DNA of 62,434 nt from the NCBI GenBank assembly GCA_015067465.1, contig SVMK01000004.1:1-62434 (forward strand), given 5' to 3'. A model generated the notes under the pieces. It did no database searches and had not been told where the DNA came from. It worked only from the letters and a program-made list of their open reading frames with translations. The position numbers and the translations under genes are program-made. Origin of the DNA: Oscillospiraceae bacterium (GTDB lineage: Bacteria; Bacillota; Clostridia; Oscillospirales; Oscillospiraceae). Positions 2 to 36,725 of the stretch are shown here, piece after piece; within the stretch, counting starts at the first letter, position 1; every line of letters begins with the position of its first letter.

Positions 2-745
2 GTTAAGGAAACCGTCGGCTGCCGCGACGACATTATGCTCTATCTCATCAGCAAGGGCATGGAACCGAAAACCGCTTTCAAGATCATGGAAGCGGTTCGT
101 AAAGGCAAGGTGAAAAAAGGCGGTTTCCAGGAAGGCTGGGTTGAGAAAATGCATGAGCTCGATGTGCCGCAGTGGTATATTGATTCGCTCGCAAAAATCG
201 CCTATCTTTTCCCGAAAGCGCACGCCGTGGCCTATGTTATGATGGCGTTTCGCATCGCTTATTTCAAGGTGCACCATCCGCAGGCGTTCTACGCGGCATA
301 TTTCTACCGCCGCAGCCAGAAAGATTCTTTCGACGCCGAGATTATGACGCAGGGCATCGACACGGTGAAGAAAAAGATCCGGGAAATTCAGAACAACCCC
401 AACCCCACCGCAAAAGAAGAAGATCTGGAAACCACGCTGGAGGCCGTTTACGAATTCTATATGCGCGGTCTCAGCTTTGCGCCCATCGACCTTTATCAGT
501 CCGACGCAATCAAGTTCCTGCCTGTCGGCGACAAGCAGCTGCGCGCGCCGTTTGTCAGCATCTCCGGTCTGGGCGAAACCGCCGCACGCGACCTTGCCAA
601 CGCAAAAAACAAGGGCGTGACCTTCGTATCCATGGAAGATGTCAGCGCGGCCTGCCCCAAGGTCAGCCAAACCCATATGGAAACGCTCAAGCGTCTGGGC
701 GCGCTCGGCAACATGCCGGAAACCAGTCAGATCAGCCTGTTCTGA
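2..745 (+). CDS. polC: DNA polymerase III PolC-type, C-terminal part
   Basis: This is the last 247 codons of the Gram-positive replicative DNA polymerase PolC; the gene enters from the left edge and is open from base 2. Visible parts include the stretch KAHAVAYVMMAFRIAYF and the C-terminal helical region, ending in the leucine/phenylalanine-rich tail ISLF. PolC-type enzymes of Firmicutes are about 1,400 residues, so most of the polymerase, exonuclease and PHP domains lie upstream. No terminator is evident between its stop and the spo0A promoter. An ATG exists at 35, but it is internal to the protein and not a start. The family call is very secure. Confidence 0.96.
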   Translation, partial: VKETVGCRDDIMLYLISKGMEPKTAFKIMEAVRKGKVKKGGFQEGWVEKMHELDVPQWYIDSLAKIAYLFPKAHAVAYVMMAFRIAYFKVHHPQAFYAAYFYRRSQKDSFDAEIMTQGIDTVKKKIREIQNNPNPTAKEEDLETTLEAVYEFYMRGLSFAPIDLYQSDAIKFLPVGDKQLRAPFVSISGLGETAARDLANAKNKGVTFVSMEDVSAACPKVSQTHMETLKRLGALGNMPETSQISLF

Positions 746-30694: not shown

Positions 30695-30750
30695 TTTTTG
30701 CCGAAGCGTAAGGCAACTGCAACTGGGCTTTTCGTGTTATCGCCAAACTT

Positions 30751-30791
30751 AAAAAACCTGCTTTGTCGTATATTGACACAGCAGGTTTTTT
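30751..30791 (+). terminator. Terminator of the ROK kinase gene
   Basis: AAAAAACCTGCT pairs with AGCAGGTTTTTT over a 17-nt loop. The loop carries the -35 hexamer of the riboswitch promoter, so the two signals overlap. Confidence 0.75.
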
Positions 30792-30801
30792 CGTTTAACA
30801 T
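30773..30801 (+). promoter_or_regulatory. Promoter of the guanine riboswitch-xpt transcript
   Basis: TTGACA, 17 bp, TAACAT. The -35 lies inside the loop of the preceding terminator. Confidence 0.6.
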
Positions 30802-30823
30802 GGCTGATATAAGTCGATATTTG

Positions 30824-30889
30824 CCGATATAGGTTCGGATAGATGGCCCGAATGTTTCTACCGTGACGCCAACCAGTCACGACTATTGG
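30824..30889 (+). promoter_or_regulatory. Purine riboswitch aptamer, guanine class
   Basis: P1 is CCGATA (30824-30829) with TATTGG (30884-30889). P2 is GTTCGG/CCGAAT and P3 is GTGAC/GTCAC. The conserved junction GTTTCTACC is at 30854-30862. The base-pairing position before TAT in GACTAT is C (30883), which marks guanine/hypoxanthine rather than adenine recognition. Loops L2 (9 nt, ATAGATGGC) and L3 (8 nt, GCCAACCA) keep GG and CC for the kissing contact but are longer than the usual 7. It precedes xpt, the classic target. Confidence 0.9.
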
Positions 30890-30898
30890 TTAAACTGC

Positions 30899-30944
30899 CG
30901 ATACCCCGCGCTTTCTGCAGCGGAGTATCGCCGTTTTTGCTTTT
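30899..30944 (+). terminator. Riboswitch-controlled terminator 1
   Basis: CGATAC-CCGC (30899-30909) pairs with GCGG-GTATCG (30920-30930), with one mismatch, and is followed by GTTTTTGCTTTT. Its 5' arm can instead pair with the 3' strand of aptamer P1 (TATTGG with CCGATA 30898-30903). That gives an OFF switch: ligand locks P1 and frees the terminator. Confidence 0.7.
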
Positions 30945-30955
30945 AACCTCTATTG

Positions 30956-30981
30956 GCAGACCGGGTTGTCTGCTTTTTTTA
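30956..30981 (+). terminator. Second terminator in the xpt leader
   Basis: GCAGAC/GTCTGC with a 6-nt loop is followed by seven Ts, 32 bases before xpt. The sequence TATTGGCA overlapping its 5' arm can pair with TGCCGATA at 30896-30903, so its folding may also be coupled to the switch. Confidence 0.65.
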
Positions 30982-31012
30982 TTTTTAAATTACCGAAAGG
31001 AGCTGAGAAAAC

Positions 31013-31585
31013 TTGCAACTGATGGAAGAAATGATTCTGACACACGGCAAGGTTCTTCCCGGCAATATTCTCAAGGTTGGCAGCTTCCTGAATCAGCAGA
31101 TCGACACCAGACTGCTCCGCAAATGCGGAGAGGAGATTCTGCGCCTTTTTTCCGGCTGCGGCATCACCAAAGTTCTCACCATTGAGGCCAGCGGCATCGC
31201 CCTTGCAACCGCCACCGGTCTGGAGCTGGATGTTCCCGTGATCTTTGCCAAAAAGCATATCACCAGCAATGTCGACGGCGACGTATACTCCACCACGGTG
31301 CATTCCTTTACCCATAACACGGATTATTCCGTTGTAGTCAGCCGCGATTATCTTCTGCCCACGGACAAGGTTTTGCTTGTGGACGATTTTCTCGCCAACG
31401 GCGCGGCTCTGCGCGGTCTGGTTGCGCTCTGCGCGCAGGCAAACGCACAGGTGGTCGGCGCGGCGATCGCAATTGAAAAATGCTTTCAGGGCGGCGGCGA
31501 CGCACTGCGCGCATCCGGTTTGCGCGTAGAATCGCTCGCAGAGATTGAGTCCATGGAAGCGGGAAACATCATTTTTCGCTCTTAA
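31013..31585 (+). CDS. xpt: Xanthine phosphoribosyltransferase
   Basis: Salvages xanthine (and guanine) to the nucleotide with PRPP; 190 residues. The PRPP loop is VLLVDDFLANGAA, with TIEASGIA and VIFAKKH as usual in Xpt. Start is TTG at 31013, ten bases after AAAGGAG; this gives an N-terminus aligned with Bacillus Xpt, whereas ATG 31022 would be too short and too far from the site. Control by the guanine riboswitch upstream matches Bacillus. Only 74 bases and no clear terminator separate it from the second BMP gene, so the importer may be under the same switch. Confidence 0.95.
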   Translation: MQLMEEMILTHGKVLPGNILKVGSFLNQQIDTRLLRKCGEEILRLFSGCGITKVLTIEASGIALATATGLELDVPVIFAKKHITSNVDGDVYSTTVHSFTHNTDYSVVVSRDYLLPTDKVLLVDDFLANGAALRGLVALCAQANAQVVGAAIAIEKCFQGGGDALRASGLRVESLAEIESMEAGNIIFRS

Positions 31586-31659
31586 CTGCCGTCAGGCATG
31601 CTGAGCGAAATTTGTTTTACATCATTGTTCATTTATTTTTTAATACGGAGGAACCCATA

Positions 31660-32955
31660 ATGAAGAAGCTTGTATCCATCGCACTTGTTCTGGTGCTCGT
31701 GATCGGCATGTTTGCCGGCTGCGGTGCCAAGAAGGAAGAAACCCCCGCCGCTCCCGCCGAGCAGCCTGCTGCCAACCCCGATGCGAACGTTGTTTTCGAC
31801 AACGATGACACTCCCTTCGACGTCAGCACCCTGACCGCCGACGAGATCGCAACCGTAAAGGTTGGTTTCATCTTCCTGCACGACGAAAACTCCACCTATG
31901 ACCTCAACTTCATGAACGCTGCCAAAACCGCATGCGACAACGCAGGCGTTTCCTACGTCATCCGCACCAACATCCCCGAAGGCCAGGAATGCTACGACGC
32001 TGCCTGCGAGCTCGTCGATGACGGCTGCAACATCATCTTCGCCGATTCTTTCGGTCATGAGGACTTCATGATCCAGGCTGCCAAGGAATTCCCCGAGGTT
32101 GAGTTCTGCCACGCCACCGGCACCAAGGCTCATATCTCCAACCTGCCCAACTATCACAACGCATTCGCAACCATCTACGAAGGCCGCTACCTCGCCGGTG
32201 TTGCTGCCGGCATGAAGCTCAACGAGATGATCGCTGCCGGCGAATTCACCGCTGAAGAGGCCAAGATGGGCTATGTCGGCGCATTCACCTACGCAGAAGT
32301 TATTTCCGGCTTCACCTCTTTCTTCCTGGGCGCACGCTCTGTCTGCCCCACCGTGACCATGGACGTCACCTTCACCGGCTCCTGGTATGACGAGACCGCC
32401 GAGAAGGAAGGCGCACAGAACCTCATCAACGGCGGCTGCAAGCTCATCAGCCAGCACGCCGACTCCATGGGCGCTCCCACCGCCTGCGAAGCAGCCGGTG
32501 TTCCCAACGTTTCCTACAACGGCTCCACCATCGCCGCCTGCCCCAACACCTTCATTGTTTCTTCCCGCATCAACTGGATCCCCTACATGGAAGTCATGTT
32601 CGGCCGCATTGCAAAGGGCGAGAAGATCAACGCTGACTGGACCGGCACTCTGGCCAACGGCGCTGTTGTGCTGACCGAAGTCAACGAAGCAGTTGCCGCT
32701 GCCGGCACCGTTGAAGCTCTGGAAGAAGTCAAGGCCGAGCTGATCAACGGCACCCGTCACGTTTTCGACACCTCCACCTTCACCGTGGAAGGCAAAGAGC
32801 TCACCAGTTATCTGGCTGACCTGAACGACTGGGGCGACTACACCGGCGAAACCGAGATCGTCAAGGACGGCGCTTTCCGCGAGTCTGTGGACCGCAGCGC
32901 TCCCGCATTCGATCTCACCATCGACGGCATCACCCTGCTGGACACCCGTTTCTAA
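31660..32955 (+). CDS. Second BMP-family nucleoside/nucleobase-binding lipoprotein
   Basis: A 431-residue lipoprotein with signal peptide ending at FAGC (Cys21), a short Pro/Ala linker and the BMP fold beginning near VKVGFIFLHDENSTYDLNF. The opening DENSTYD and later FADSFGHEDFM place it in a different BMP subfamily from the copy at 13291. Its neighbours xpt and the guanine riboswitch point to a purine ligand. ATG 31660 follows GGAGG; a longer frame from 31612 includes non-signal sequence and is rejected. Confidence 0.9.
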   Translation: MKKLVSIALVLVLVIGMFAGCGAKKEETPAAPAEQPAANPDANVVFDNDDTPFDVSTLTADEIATVKVGFIFLHDENSTYDLNFMNAAKTACDNAGVSYVIRTNIPEGQECYDAACELVDDGCNIIFADSFGHEDFMIQAAKEFPEVEFCHATGTKAHISNLPNYHNAFATIYEGRYLAGVAAGMKLNEMIAAGEFTAEEAKMGYVGAFTYAEVISGFTSFFLGARSVCPTVTMDVTFTGSWYDETAEKEGAQNLINGGCKLISQHADSMGAPTACEAAGVPNVSYNGSTIAACPNTFIVSSRINWIPYMEVMFGRIAKGEKINADWTGTLANGAVVLTEVNEAVAAAGTVEALEEVKAELINGTRHVFDTSTFTVEGKELTSYLADLNDWGDYTGETEIVKDGAFRESVDRSAPAFDLTIDGITLLDTRF

Positions 32956-32972
32956 TTTTATCCTGTTTTCCC

Positions 32973-33054
32973 GCGGGAAGCTCCCTTTTGGGGGCTTCCC
33001 GCCACCTGCTGTAAAGGGGAGGGCGGCAATCGCTGCCGTTTTGCCCTTTACAGC
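32973..33054 (+). repeat. Two consecutive strong hairpins between BMP and ABC genes
   Basis: GCGGGAAGC/GCTTCCCGC (32973-33002) is followed at once by GCTGTAAAGGG/CCCTTTACAGC (33008-33054) enclosing a smaller GC-rich stem. Neither has a proper T-run (ATCTTT follows the second). They probably attenuate or process the transcript, so that more binding protein than ATPase is made. Confidence 0.65.
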
Positions 33055-33102
33055 ATCTTTAAACTCTTACTCTTTCTCTGTAACAGAAAGGAGCTGACAC
33101 GC

Positions 33103-34641
33103 TTGGAAGAAAAAATTGCAGCCGTTCAGATGCGCGATATCACCAAGAGCTTCGGCAAAGTGGTTGCCAACGACAAAGTTTGGCTTGATATCTATCGCGG
33201 CGAAATTCTTGCGCTGCTGGGCGAAAACGGCAGCGGTAAAACCACGCTGATGAACATGCTCTCCGGCATCTACTATCCCGACGAGGGGCAGATCTTCGTG
33301 GACGGCAAAGAGGTTGTCATCCGCTCGCCGAAGGATGCCTTTTCCCTCGGCATCGGCATGATTCACCAGCATTTCAAGCTTGTGGACGTGCTCACCGCCG
33401 CGGAAAACATCGTGCTCGGTCTCAAAGAGCCCGGCAAGCTCGACCTTGCAGCGGCCAGCCGCCGCATCCGCGCCATCTGCGACGCTTACGGCTTTGAAGT
33501 GGACCCTGATCAGAAAATCTATGATATGTCCGTTTCCCAGAAGCAGACCGTCGAGATCGTCAAGGTGCTTTACCGCGGCGCGGATATCCTGATCCTCGAC
33601 GAGCCCACCGCCGTACTCACCCCGCAGGAAACCGATAAGCTCTTCGCCGTGCTGCGCAACATGCGCAACGACGGCAAGGCCATCGTGATTATCACGCACA
33701 AGATGCATGAGGTGGAAGACCTGAGCGACCGCGTTGCCGTGCTGCGCCACGGTCATTTCGTCGGCGATATGCTCACCGCCTCCACCAACGCGCAGGAGAT
33801 GACCAACATGATGGTCGGTCATCCCGTGGTTTTGAATATCGACCGTCCTGAACCGGTCAACTCCAAGCCCCGTCTTGAGGTGAAAAACCTCACCGTTCGC
33901 AGCATTGACGGCGTTTTGAAGCTGGACGATGTTTCTTTCGTTGCCAATTCCGGCGAAATTCTCGGCATTGCGGGCATTTCCGGCTGCGGACAGAAAGAAC
34001 TTCTCGAAGCCATCGCAGGCCTGCAGGTTGTGGAAAGCGGCAGCATCACCTATCTGGGCGACAACGGCGAAACCGAAGAGCTGATCGGCAAGGATCCCCT
34101 GCAGATCGCCGATCTCGGCGTTTCGCTCTCCTTCGTTCCGGAGGACCGTCTCGGTATGGGTCTGGTCGGAAGCATGGATCTGGCGGACAATATGATGCTC
34201 CGCTCGTTCCGCCGCAGCCGCAGCATCTTCACCGACCGCAAATCCCCGCGCACGCTGGCGGAGCAGGTTGTTTCCGATCTGGAAGTCAGCACGCCCGGCA
34301 TCTCCACCCCGGTCAGAAGACTTTCCGGCGGCAATGTTCAGAAGGTTTTGGTCGGCCGCGAGATTGCCTCCGCCCCCACCGTGCTGCTGACTGCCTACGC
34401 CGTTCGAGGGCTGGACATCAACAGTTCCTACACAATCTATGACCTGATCAACCAGCAGAAAGCGCGCGGCGTTGCCGTGGTTTATGTCGGCGAGGACCTC
34501 GACGTTCTGCTGGAGCTGTGCGACAAAATTCTCGTCCTCTGCGGCGGCAAGGTCAGCGGCATCATCGACGGCCGCGGCGCCACAAAGCGGAAAGTCGGCA
34601 TGATGATGACCAAGCTGGGAGGTGACAGCGCCGATGAATAA
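33103..34641 (+). CDS. Second nucleoside ABC transporter ATP-binding protein
   Basis: A 512-residue double ABC ATPase. The first half has GENGSGKTT and ILILDEPTA; the second has GISGCGQKE and LSGGNVQKVLVGREIA. In the second half the Walker B region reads VLLTAYAVRGLDINS, with no DEP, a degenerate site as in other family members. Start is TTG at 33103, nine bases after AAAGGAG; no ATG is near. The next permease overlaps its end by eight bases. Confidence 0.92.
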   Translation: MEEKIAAVQMRDITKSFGKVVANDKVWLDIYRGEILALLGENGSGKTTLMNMLSGIYYPDEGQIFVDGKEVVIRSPKDAFSLGIGMIHQHFKLVDVLTAAENIVLGLKEPGKLDLAAASRRIRAICDAYGFEVDPDQKIYDMSVSQKQTVEIVKVLYRGADILILDEPTAVLTPQETDKLFAVLRNMRNDGKAIVIITHKMHEVEDLSDRVAVLRHGHFVGDMLTASTNAQEMTNMMVGHPVVLNIDRPEPVNSKPRLEVKNLTVRSIDGVLKLDDVSFVANSGEILGIAGISGCGQKELLEAIAGLQVVESGSITYLGDNGETEELIGKDPLQIADLGVSLSFVPEDRLGMGLVGSMDLADNMMLRSFRRSRSIFTDRKSPRTLAEQVVSDLEVSTPGISTPVRRLSGGNVQKVLVGREIASAPTVLLTAYAVRGLDINSSYTIYDLINQQKARGVAVVYVGEDLDVLLELCDKILVLCGGKVSGIIDGRGATKRKVGMMMTKLGGDSADE

Positions 34642-35734
34642 TCAGAAAGTACCCCTCATCCATCTCACCAAGCGCAAGGCGCTGCCCTGGTACGCCGCAT
34701 TCGGCATCCGTGCAGCCGCCATTGTGCTGGCGCTTATCGTGTGCGCGCTTGTCACCACGCTGCTTACCGGCGAAAACCCCCTGCAAATCTATGCCACCAT
34801 GTTTGCCGGTGCTTTCGGCACCCCCCGCAAACTTTGGATACTGGGCCAGCAAATCGCCATTTTGCTTTGCATTGCGCTGGCCCTCACCCCTGCATTTAAG
34901 ATGAAATACTGGAACCTCGGCGGCGAGGGCCAGGTGCTCATCGGCGGTTTGGCCGCCGCCGCCTGCATGATTCTGCTCGGCAAAACCCTGCCCAACATTC
35001 TGCTCATCCCCATCATGCTTGCAGCTTCCGTACTCGCAGGTGCAGTTTGGGCGGTAATTCCCGCGCTGTTTAAGGCGAAATGGAACACCAACGAAACGCT
35101 CTTTACCCTGATGATGAACTATGTTGCAACCCAGCTTGTGGCGTTTTTCATCATCGTCTGGGAGTCCCCGAAAGGTTCGGGTAAAATCGGCATCATCAAT
35201 CAGGCCACCGAGGCCGGCTGGCTGCCCATCATCGGCGGGCAGAAATACCTGCTGAATATCCTCATCGTGGCTGTGATCACCGCCTTGATGTATGTTTACC
35301 TCAAATACACCAAGCACGGCTACGAAATCTCCGTCGTCGGCGAAAGCGAGCGCACTGCGCGCTACGTCGGCATCAAGGTGGAAAAGGTGATCGTCCGCAC
35401 GCTGATTCTCTCCGGCGCCATCTGCGGCGCGGCCGGACTCATGCTTGTCGGCGGAACGGACCATACCATCACCACAACCATCGCGGGCGGCCGCGGCTTC
35501 ACCGCCGTTATGGTGGCGTGGCTCGGCAAATTCAATCCCCTTGTGATGGTGCTCACCAGTTTCCTGCTTGTTTTCCTCAGCCGCGGAGCAAGCGAAATTT
35601 CAACAAAGTTCGGTCTGAACCAGTCGTTTGGCGATATTCTCACGGGCATCATCCTGTTTTTCATTATCGGCAGCGAATTTTTCATCACCTACAAGATCAA
35701 CTTCCGTAAGAGCGCGAAAAAGGAGGCTGAATAA
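34634..35734 (+). CDS. Second nucleoside ABC transporter permease A
   Basis: A 366-residue permease of the BPD_transp_2 family with motifs ALTPAFKMKYWNLGGEGQ and NETLFTLMMNYVA, and the coupling loop EISVVGESERTARYVGI. It has about eight to ten hydrophobic segments. ATG 34634 is used; GTG 34622 falls inside the ribosome-binding site. It differs from the first system's permease in lacking the Ala-rich tail. Confidence 0.9.
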   Translation: MNNQKVPLIHLTKRKALPWYAAFGIRAAAIVLALIVCALVTTLLTGENPLQIYATMFAGAFGTPRKLWILGQQIAILLCIALALTPAFKMKYWNLGGEGQVLIGGLAAAACMILLGKTLPNILLIPIMLAASVLAGAVWAVIPALFKAKWNTNETLFTLMMNYVATQLVAFFIIVWESPKGSGKIGIINQATEAGWLPIIGGQKYLLNILIVAVITALMYVYLKYTKHGYEISVVGESERTARYVGIKVEKVIVRTLILSGAICGAAGLMLVGGTDHTITTTIAGGRGFTAVMVAWLGKFNPLVMVLTSFLLVFLSRGASEISTKFGLNQSFGDILTGIILFFIIGSEFFITYKINFRKSAKKEAE

Positions 35735-35735
35735 T

Positions 35736-36725
35736 ATGTTTGATATTGTTTCCTTCATTCCGCGCGCCGTTGTGCAGAGTATTCCGCTGCTTTACGGCAG
35801 CATCGGCGAAACCATCACGGAAAAGTCCGGCAACCTCAACCTCGGTATCCCCGGCGTAATGTATGTCGGCGGAATTTGCGGCGTTATCGGTTCGTTTTTC
35901 TATGAGCAGTCCTGCGGCGGCAACGTCAACGGCTTTCTTGCGCTGGCAATTCCGATTCTCTGCTGCCTGATCGGTTCGCTGCTGATGGGCCTGATCTATT
36001 GCCTGCTCACCGTCAATCTCCGCGCCAACCAGAACGTCACCGGTCTTGCCCTCACCACCTTCGGCGTCGGCTTCGGCAACTTCTTCGGCGGCTCGCTGAT
36101 CCGCCTGAGCAACGCGGATGTTCCCTCTATCGCGCTGAGCGCTACCAGCAGCTATTTCAGCCATCATCTCCCCTTCGCGGACAGCTGCGGCTGGTTCGGC
36201 AAGATTTTCCTGAGCTACGGTTTTCTGGTTTATCTTGCTTTCATCATCGCCTTTGTTTCCGCCTATATCATTCGCCGCACCCGCGTCGGTCTGCAGCTGC
36301 GCGCCGTGGGCGAAAGCCCCGCAACGGCGGATGCTGCCGGCATCAACATCACCCGCTACAAGTATGTTGCAACCTGTGTGGGCTGCATGATCGCGGGACT
36401 CGGCGGACTTTACTATGTCATGGACTATGCCTGCGGCATCTGGAGCAACGACGCTTTCGGCGACCGCGGCTGGCTTGCCATCGCCCTCGTTATCTTCACG
36501 ATCTGGCGCCCGAATGTGAGCGTGTTTGCCTCCATTCTCTTTGGTGGACTCTATATCCTCTATCTCTTCATCCCCACAGGCATGAATCTCTCGCTCAAGG
36601 AGCTTTACAAAATGCTCCCCTATATCGTCACCATCATCGTGCTGATTATCACCAGCATGCGCAACAAGCGCGAGAATCAACCGCCCGAGAGTCTTGGCAT
36701 CGCGTATTTCCGCGAAGACCGCTGA
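35736..36725 (+). CDS. Second nucleoside ABC transporter permease B
   Basis: A 329-residue permease whose N-terminus GSIGETITEKSGNLNLGIPG and loop LRAVGESPATADAAGINITR mark it as partner of the previous permease. ATG 35736 follows AAGGAGG with nine bases between, and starts one base after the previous stop. It closes the second importer; no terminator is seen before the next small gene. Confidence 0.9.
   Translation: MFDIVSFIPRAVVQSIPLLYGSIGETITEKSGNLNLGIPGVMYVGGICGVIGSFFYEQSCGGNVNGFLALAIPILCCLIGSLLMGLIYCLLTVNLRANQNVTGLALTTFGVGFGNFFGGSLIRLSNADVPSIALSATSSYFSHHLPFADSCGWFGKIFLSYGFLVYLAFIIAFVSAYIIRRTRVGLQLRAVGESPATADAAGINITRYKYVATCVGCMIAGLGGLYYVMDYACGIWSNDAFGDRGWLAIALVIFTIWRPNVSVFASILFGGLYILYLFIPTGMNLSLKELYKMLPYIVTIIVLIITSMRNKRENQPPESLGIAYFREDR

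Follow-up and report, generated by a model that had tools for sequence, protein, structure and literature searches.

A probable guanine riboswitch with a single aptamer and two terminators upstream of an xpt-like gene in an Oscillospiraceae bacterium

The xpt locus and its aptamer

The window, i.e. the whole stretch of DNA that was analysed, comprises 62,434 bases of contig SVMK01000004.1 from an Oscillospiraceae bacterium (assembly GCA_015067465.1). It contains a purine phosphoribosyltransferase gene, which we take to be xpt from its similarity to B. subtilis Xpt, together with the following features.

30773..30801, + strand: promoter-like TTGACA-17-TAACAT, agreeing with the consensus at 10 of 12 positions
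near 30808, + strand: expected transcript start
30996..31002, + strand: ribosome-binding site AAAGGAG, read from the sequence
31013..31585, + strand: xpt-like purine phosphoribosyltransferase gene, 190 amino acids, TTG start (Pfam PF00156)
31612..36725, + strand: genes for a BMP/PnrA-type lipoprotein (PF02608), an ABC ATPase (PF00005) and two permeases (PF02653 twice)

Judged from their sequences, the genes at 31612..36725 likely serve the uptake of purines or nucleosides and likely belong to the same operon as the xpt-like gene. The two congeneric genomes, L017 and L162, show the same promoter hexamers at the same spacing upstream of xpt. The upstream ROK-family gene probably has its terminator in a hairpin, AACCTGCT...AGCAGGTTTTTT at 30750-30793. 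This hairpin shares sequence with the promoter-like TTGACA at 30773, so that terminator and xpt promoter seem to be interleaved. Far from this locus, positions 1769-1841 of the window matched the Streptococcus sRNA SpF59 in Rfam (53.1 bits; gathering score 37.2), in what is apparently a non-Streptococcus genome.

A purine riboswitch aptamer (Rfam RF00167) was detected by cmscan at 30805-30905 on the + strand, scoring 47.9 bits where 37 is the gathering threshold. This was the sole RF00167 match in the window and in the genome, and the leader therefore falls outside the tandem-aptamer class, which has two or more aptamers. The aptamer was divided as follows.

30822..30891, + strand: aptamer core (RF00167 alignment)
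30823-30829/30884-30890, + strand: helix P1 (letters checked)
30833-30838/30848-30853, + strand: helix P2 (RF00167 alignment)
30854-30861, + strand: J2/3, GUUUCUAC
30862-30867/30876-30881, + strand: helix P3 (letters checked)

In the RF00167 alignment, the helices P1, P2 and P3 were present and the J2/3 core GUUUCUACC was conserved, and J1/2 read UAG where the consensus is UAA. Position 51 was placed by the usual numbering, assumed to apply to this aptamer. The specificity position (74) is a C, at 30883 within GACTA, as in the guanine type and not the adenine type (U); C or U at this position separates the two classes according to a 2024 review (PMC11477058). The U51G change, carried by xanthine-II variants (PMC9295807), was not seen in the aptamer at 30822-30891. 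From the RF00167 score above gathering, the specificity C, and the neighbouring genes for purine salvage and uptake, this gut-bacterial RNA switch probably senses guanine, in agreement with the first-pass annotation, which had called it a guanine riboswitch.

Two terminators and the partners of the P1 strands

The same annotation had described a second copy of each P1 strand and two terminators behind the aptamer. Direct reading of the sequence found both repeats where they had been placed, and each of the two terminator stems is followed by a T run.

30822..30829, + strand: TGCCGATA, copy 1, the P1 5' strand, proposed to switch terminator 2
30884..30889, + strand: TATTGG, copy 1, the P1 3' strand, proposed to switch terminator 1
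30896..30903, + strand: TGCCGATA, copy 2, either the partner of the P1 3' strand (antiterminator 1, AT1) or the lower 5' arm of terminator 1
30899..30944, + strand: terminator 1 (T1), stem 30899-30909/30920-30930, T runs 30934-30938 and 30941-30944
30945..30960, + strand: antiterminator-2 (AT2) element AACCTCTATTGGCAGA, which pairs with 30820-30835 and overlaps the T2 5' arm
30951-30958, + strand: TATTGG, copy 2, as TATTGGCA
30955..30986, + strand: terminator 2 (T2), stem 30955-30961/30968-30974, T tract 30974-30986

When 30892-30990 was shuffled 20,000 times with the dinucleotides preserved, TGCCGATA appeared in 37 of the shuffles and TATTGGCA in 19, and TGCCGATA and TATTGG appeared together in 4. 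In the whole window, TATTGGCA occurs once on the + strand and nowhere on the - strand. The leader folded better than 200 of 200 shuffles (z = -3.33). The best T1 hairpin reached -19.2 kcal/mol including closing pairs and, as had been annotated, it contains the second CCGATA in its 5' arm (stem 30899-30930). The T2 hairpin (30955-30974) reached -9.2 kcal/mol, and the end of the second TATTGGCA lies in its 5' arm.

The complementarity of TATTGGCA to the 5' end of the aptamer extends beyond the repeat, an extension that had been missed in the first pass. In the minimum free energy (MFE) structure, UUUGCCGAUA-U-AGGUU (30820-30835) stands opposite AACCU-C-UAUUGGCAGA (30945-30960) with 15 pairs and one mismatch. 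Equally good complementarity between these two segments arose in 1 of 300 shuffles, and the duplex had an energy of -18.4 kcal/mol (p 0.005, dinucleotide shuffles).

Energy-model ensembles were computed for each transcript length, with the RNA either free or with the aptamer helices enforced and credited with a stabilisation of 4 or 8 kcal/mol. In the ligand-free RNA, P1 had a probability of 0.87-0.90 up to 30898, and AT1, formed by the P1 3' strand and the second CCGATA, had 0.91-0.96 in RNAs ending at 30904-30925, which agrees with the earlier proposal that the P1 3' strand can choose between these two partners. T1 nevertheless formed without ligand at equilibrium (0.63 at 30931 and 0.98 at 30939), so that its control would have to be kinetic. 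From 30958 onward, the ligand-free P1 5' strand was paired with UAUUGGCA at probability 1.0, and the AT2 helix was extended inward by AGGUU:AACCU in the MFE structure. In ligand-free RNAs from 30975, AT2 stood at 1.0 and T2 at 0.00; in the model, AT2 pairing thus excludes T2 unless P1 is locked. With the bonus of 8 kcal/mol, P1 reached 0.67-0.72 and T2 0.51-0.59 in RNAs ending at 30975-30985, whereas with 4 kcal/mol T2 remained at 0.00. T2 therefore needs a firmly held ligand in this model, and the firm hold would most plausibly come from slow ligand release.

Intrinsic terminators opposed by P1-exclusive helices, the mark of an OFF-type platform, were accordingly found in the energy model for T1 with AT1 and for T2 with AT2. 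The classical platform, which uses the P1 3' strand only, does not describe the leader, because the second antiterminator draws on the P1 5' strand. The first-pass annotation had instead paired the second TATTGGCA with the second TGCCGATA and had arranged all helices in one cascade. Although eight standard pairs are possible between these copies, the probability of their pairing stayed at or below 0.01 for every transcript length and bonus in the model; T1 occupies the second TGCCGATA strand, and the partner in P1 5' and P2 is longer. We therefore rejected this pairing and regard a linear cascade as very improbable. The two terminators and the mutual exclusions of that proposal stand, and since the computed partner of the second TATTGGCA is the first TGCCGATA, i.e. 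the P1 5' strand extended into P2, they form two platforms, one per P1 strand, rather than a linear cascade.

The model also bears on the relative weight of the two terminators. The ligand-dependent range was larger at T2, and T1 won at equilibrium with or without ligand, as would be expected if T2 and its P1-5'-strand antiterminator were the true switch and the first hairpin mainly a pause, a folding insulator or a weak attenuator. We consider this possible but unlikely: T1 combines a long stem with T runs and repeats the P1 5' strand exactly in its 5' arm, a repeat that arose in 37 of the 20,000 shuffles.

The P1 5' complement in xpt leaders of relatives

Leaders were gathered from the purine leaders of the family, from the xpt loci of named genomes, and from the xpt loci of the family and the order. 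A script recognised an aptamer in 43 of 133 xpt-upstream regions, and 34 were kept after the removal of nine duplicates (same genome place or same sequence). L142, whose downstream gene was not identified, was added by hand as a 35th leader since it has the feature, and the unbiased counts exclude it. The detection by script misses some leaders and is no census; L202 and L209 resemble aptamer remnants. For L001, L160 and L200, the P1 register was chosen manually, as were the last-terminator positions of L065, L151 and L166, that of L065 being its first predicted terminator. A test for resemblance to the P1 3' strand at any place in the leader was dropped, because matches of at least 5/6 were no commoner than chance; exact second copies of the P1 3' strand occurred in 8 of 34 leaders (shuffle mean 1.56, maximum 7 in 200 rounds). 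It was replaced by complementarity to the P1 5' octamer within up to 26 nt around the 5' arm of the last terminator.

In 20 of the 34 xpt leaders (21/35 with L142), the octamer found at least 7 of 8 pairs near the last terminator, whereas 2,000 rounds of shuffled windows of the 35 leaders averaged 3.35 and never exceeded 10. All 8 pairs were found in 9 of 34 (10/35 with L142), against a shuffle mean of 0.24 and a maximum of 3. Two sets served as controls. In purine leaders from other orders, a class sample of 30 retained loci, all high-scoring, from a longer list, at least 7 of 8 pairs occurred in 3 (expected 2.9) and all 8 in one (expected 0.1). In same-family leaders without xpt found nearby, the corresponding numbers were 16 of 108 (expected 11.4) and 2 of 108 (expected 0.6), the latter becoming 3/109 if L142, which is absent from this control, is included. 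The recurrence in the xpt leaders, together with controls near chance, suggests that the P1-5' complement belongs to the xpt leaders of this order. Duplex energy over the whole leader was significant against dinucleotide shuffles (p <=0.05) in 10 of 34 xpt leaders and in 16 of 118 other leaders; since the other leaders also score, a stable duplex anywhere in the leader is unspecific, and it is the position at the terminator that is specific.

Cognate pairs of P1 5' region and terminator arm were more stable than re-paired ones, with 0 of 5,000 permutations reaching the same stability (flanks included, kinship uncorrected). Covariation within the P1 core was weak, because both partners are conserved: after swapping of partners, 8 of 8 pairs were reached 8.3 times on average versus 10 observed, and 326 of 2,000 swaps attained the observed 10. 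Pairing of the flanks outside the octamer (the outer extension of P1 5' with copy 2) gave no significance (p 0.25). A single case of compensatory change, from G-C to A-U, was seen in the P2 extension of L071, at the counterpart of 30833:30947, and L217 carries UACCAAUA with UAUUGGUA.

In most relatives, the modelled helix of P1 5' with copy 2 is compatible with the terminator hairpin. At equilibrium, the last terminator showed no P1-dependent switching in 33 of 35 leaders, and only the window and L160 switched; the 5'-strand exclusion values were unusable for first terminators and for L062 and L151, where the scored region takes in the P1 3' strand. Instead of blocking a terminator, the second TATTGGCA might accordingly act after the decision, as a latch that unfolds the aptamer to guard against late binding of the ligand. 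This is improbable, since a latch has no need of the position observed: the element abuts or overlaps the terminator 5' arm, its start lying at -7 or -4 relative to the terminator for eight of the nine highest-scoring rows (at -1 in the remaining one), and its overlap in the window takes in most of the T2 arm. Where relatives have a single terminator, the overlap of the element falls mostly on A-U pairs at the base of that terminator; removing these pairs costs about 4.4 kcal/mol in L191, L201 and L203, and their loss would weaken the terminator, not abolish it.

Several relatives of the order carry the element with a single terminator (L191, L195, L197, L201, L203, L219 and L224); thus the 5'-strand element occurs without a first platform. 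Two terminators were predicted in 15 of 35 leaders, some with poor T runs, and the element is absent from some of the leaders with two, e.g. L055 and L061. The second TGCCGATA with the T1 platform was intact nowhere else among the examined leaders, and the full two-strand arrangement was found only in this genome. In the congener L017, CGATAC is kept after P1, no T run stands behind the first hairpin, and AT2 is broken. Relatives with the element at the last terminator only and the L017 hairpin without a T run are in line with T2 being the true switch, the reading judged unlikely above. The other congener, L162 (G040), keeps the promoter hexamers and xpt and gave no RF00167 match even at E up to 1; compared with its congeners, it is a case of natural riboswitch loss or absence.

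T2 arms of the GGCAGAC type also occur in xpt leaders without a detected aptamer, so part of the conservation of this arm may predate the switch. It was asked of the same data whether T1 alone is switched, by the usual P1-3'-strand mechanism, with T2 as a constitutive or partial back-up and the second TATTGGCA incidental. T1 and AT1 match the standard OFF platform, terminators with GGCAGAC-type arms precede xpt even without a detected aptamer, and the partly similar dual terminator of Bc1 has a T2 that stays folded (PMC11218506). However, the P1-5' complement recurs at the last terminator of 20/34 xpt leaders and not in the controls, the element in the window spans most of the T2 5' arm with ligand-free T2 at 0.00, and a strong constitutive T2 would hold the operon off. 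We regard control at T1 alone as rather improbable.

Further observations were made in these leaders. In L165, L167, L169, L074, L075, L186, L208 and L211, the aptamer went undetected, yet a (G)GCAGAC- or CAGAC-type hairpin and a T run stand before xpt; these hairpins are possibly another attenuation signal or the trace of a lost aptamer, and Rfam gave no match at or above a gathering score there. Upstream of xpt in L074, sub-threshold matches to Gut-1 RNA (RF01706, gathering 50) lie at 189-259 (+) and 280-361 (-), with 43.5 and 35.7 bits. In L119, L132, L136 and L144, four leaders of one genus with no xpt found nearby, the P1 5' region is complementary (up to -18.9 kcal/mol) to a segment downstream of the terminator, beside the ribosome-binding site, and this predicted pairing is possibly a second, translational layer.

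Proposed control and relation to known riboswitches

In riboswitch models, one strand of P1, normally the 3' strand, relays the message to the expression platform. For the leader studied here, we propose, as somewhat favoured by the evidence, an OFF-type guanine riboswitch in which one aptamer is followed by two successive expression platforms. Its usual part, control of T1 by the P1 3' strand, is probable, and control of T2 by the P1 5' strand is supported by the chance-corrected recurrence and by the energy model, so that each P1 strand appears in the model to serve a terminator of its own. Without ligand, the P1 3' strand would pair with the second CCGATA and T1 would be blocked; some 50 nt further on, pairing of the 5' strands of P1 and P2 with AACCUCUAUUGGCAGA would block T2, with or without a formed T1 hairpin. 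RNA polymerase would then pass both blocked terminators and transcribe xpt and the purine-uptake genes. When guanine is bound, P1 would stay closed, both partner strands would be left free, and T1 would form. Transcripts that escape T1 would encounter T2, where ligand occupancy would be queried again. The analysis shows the sequence elements, their modelled mutual exclusions and the recurrent P1-5' complement in related xpt leaders; from these we infer the identity of the ligand, termination at either site, the direction of control and the kinetic control of T2.

More tentatively, and with slightly less than even confidence, the 5'-strand P1 platform may be specific to the xpt riboswitches of this order, its element, a second P1 3' strand, sitting at the base of the last terminator, and may here be stacked on the 3'-strand platform to give two checkpoints about 50 nt apart.

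The leader belongs to a known riboswitch class, and its expression platform is uncommon. It resembles B. subtilis xpt and yxjA (guanine-I, RF00167) in the three-way-junction aptamer, the guanine-type C and the genes for purine salvage or uptake, and also in the OFF platform, whose terminator is opposed by a P1-competing helix. In yxjA, strands are exchanged among P1, a central helix and the terminator (PMC9756952); as described there, the P1 3' strand is swapped with one terminator, whereas here a second terminator is also opposed, by the P1 5' strand and P2. Bc1, a c-di-GMP-I riboswitch of the Bacillus cereus group, likewise has one aptamer and then two intrinsic terminators in one platform, an arrangement termed rarely seen (PMC11218506). 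The ligand class is different, however, and by that account the Bc1 T2 stays folded and masks the response, while the T2 described here comes with a P1-dependent antiterminator of its own. Ligand-controlled terminators also follow one another in tandem riboswitches, guanine doublets and triplets among them; these have several aptamers (PMC9481103, PMC9337991), in contrast to the one aptamer found here. Outside riboswitches, a two-terminator leader is known from rimP (PMC2965389). In the 2024 review, a P1 3' strand that forms an exclusive structure is the common trait of the P1-regulated riboswitches covered (PMC11477058); the present leader shares P1 as the regulatory helix and, according to the model, would differ from that group in using the P1 5' strand as well. 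A literature search, which covered few subscription papers and is a weak negative, found no purine riboswitch with two terminators under one aptamer and no P1-5'-strand antitermination in a purine riboswitch.

If the proposed control is true, a leader that uses both P1 strands at two terminators would be a clean system for how long a ligand has to stay bound during transcription, and it would allow one to ask whether two checkpoints lower leakage or alter the response curve. The single-terminator relatives offer the natural comparison for the 5'-strand platform alone.
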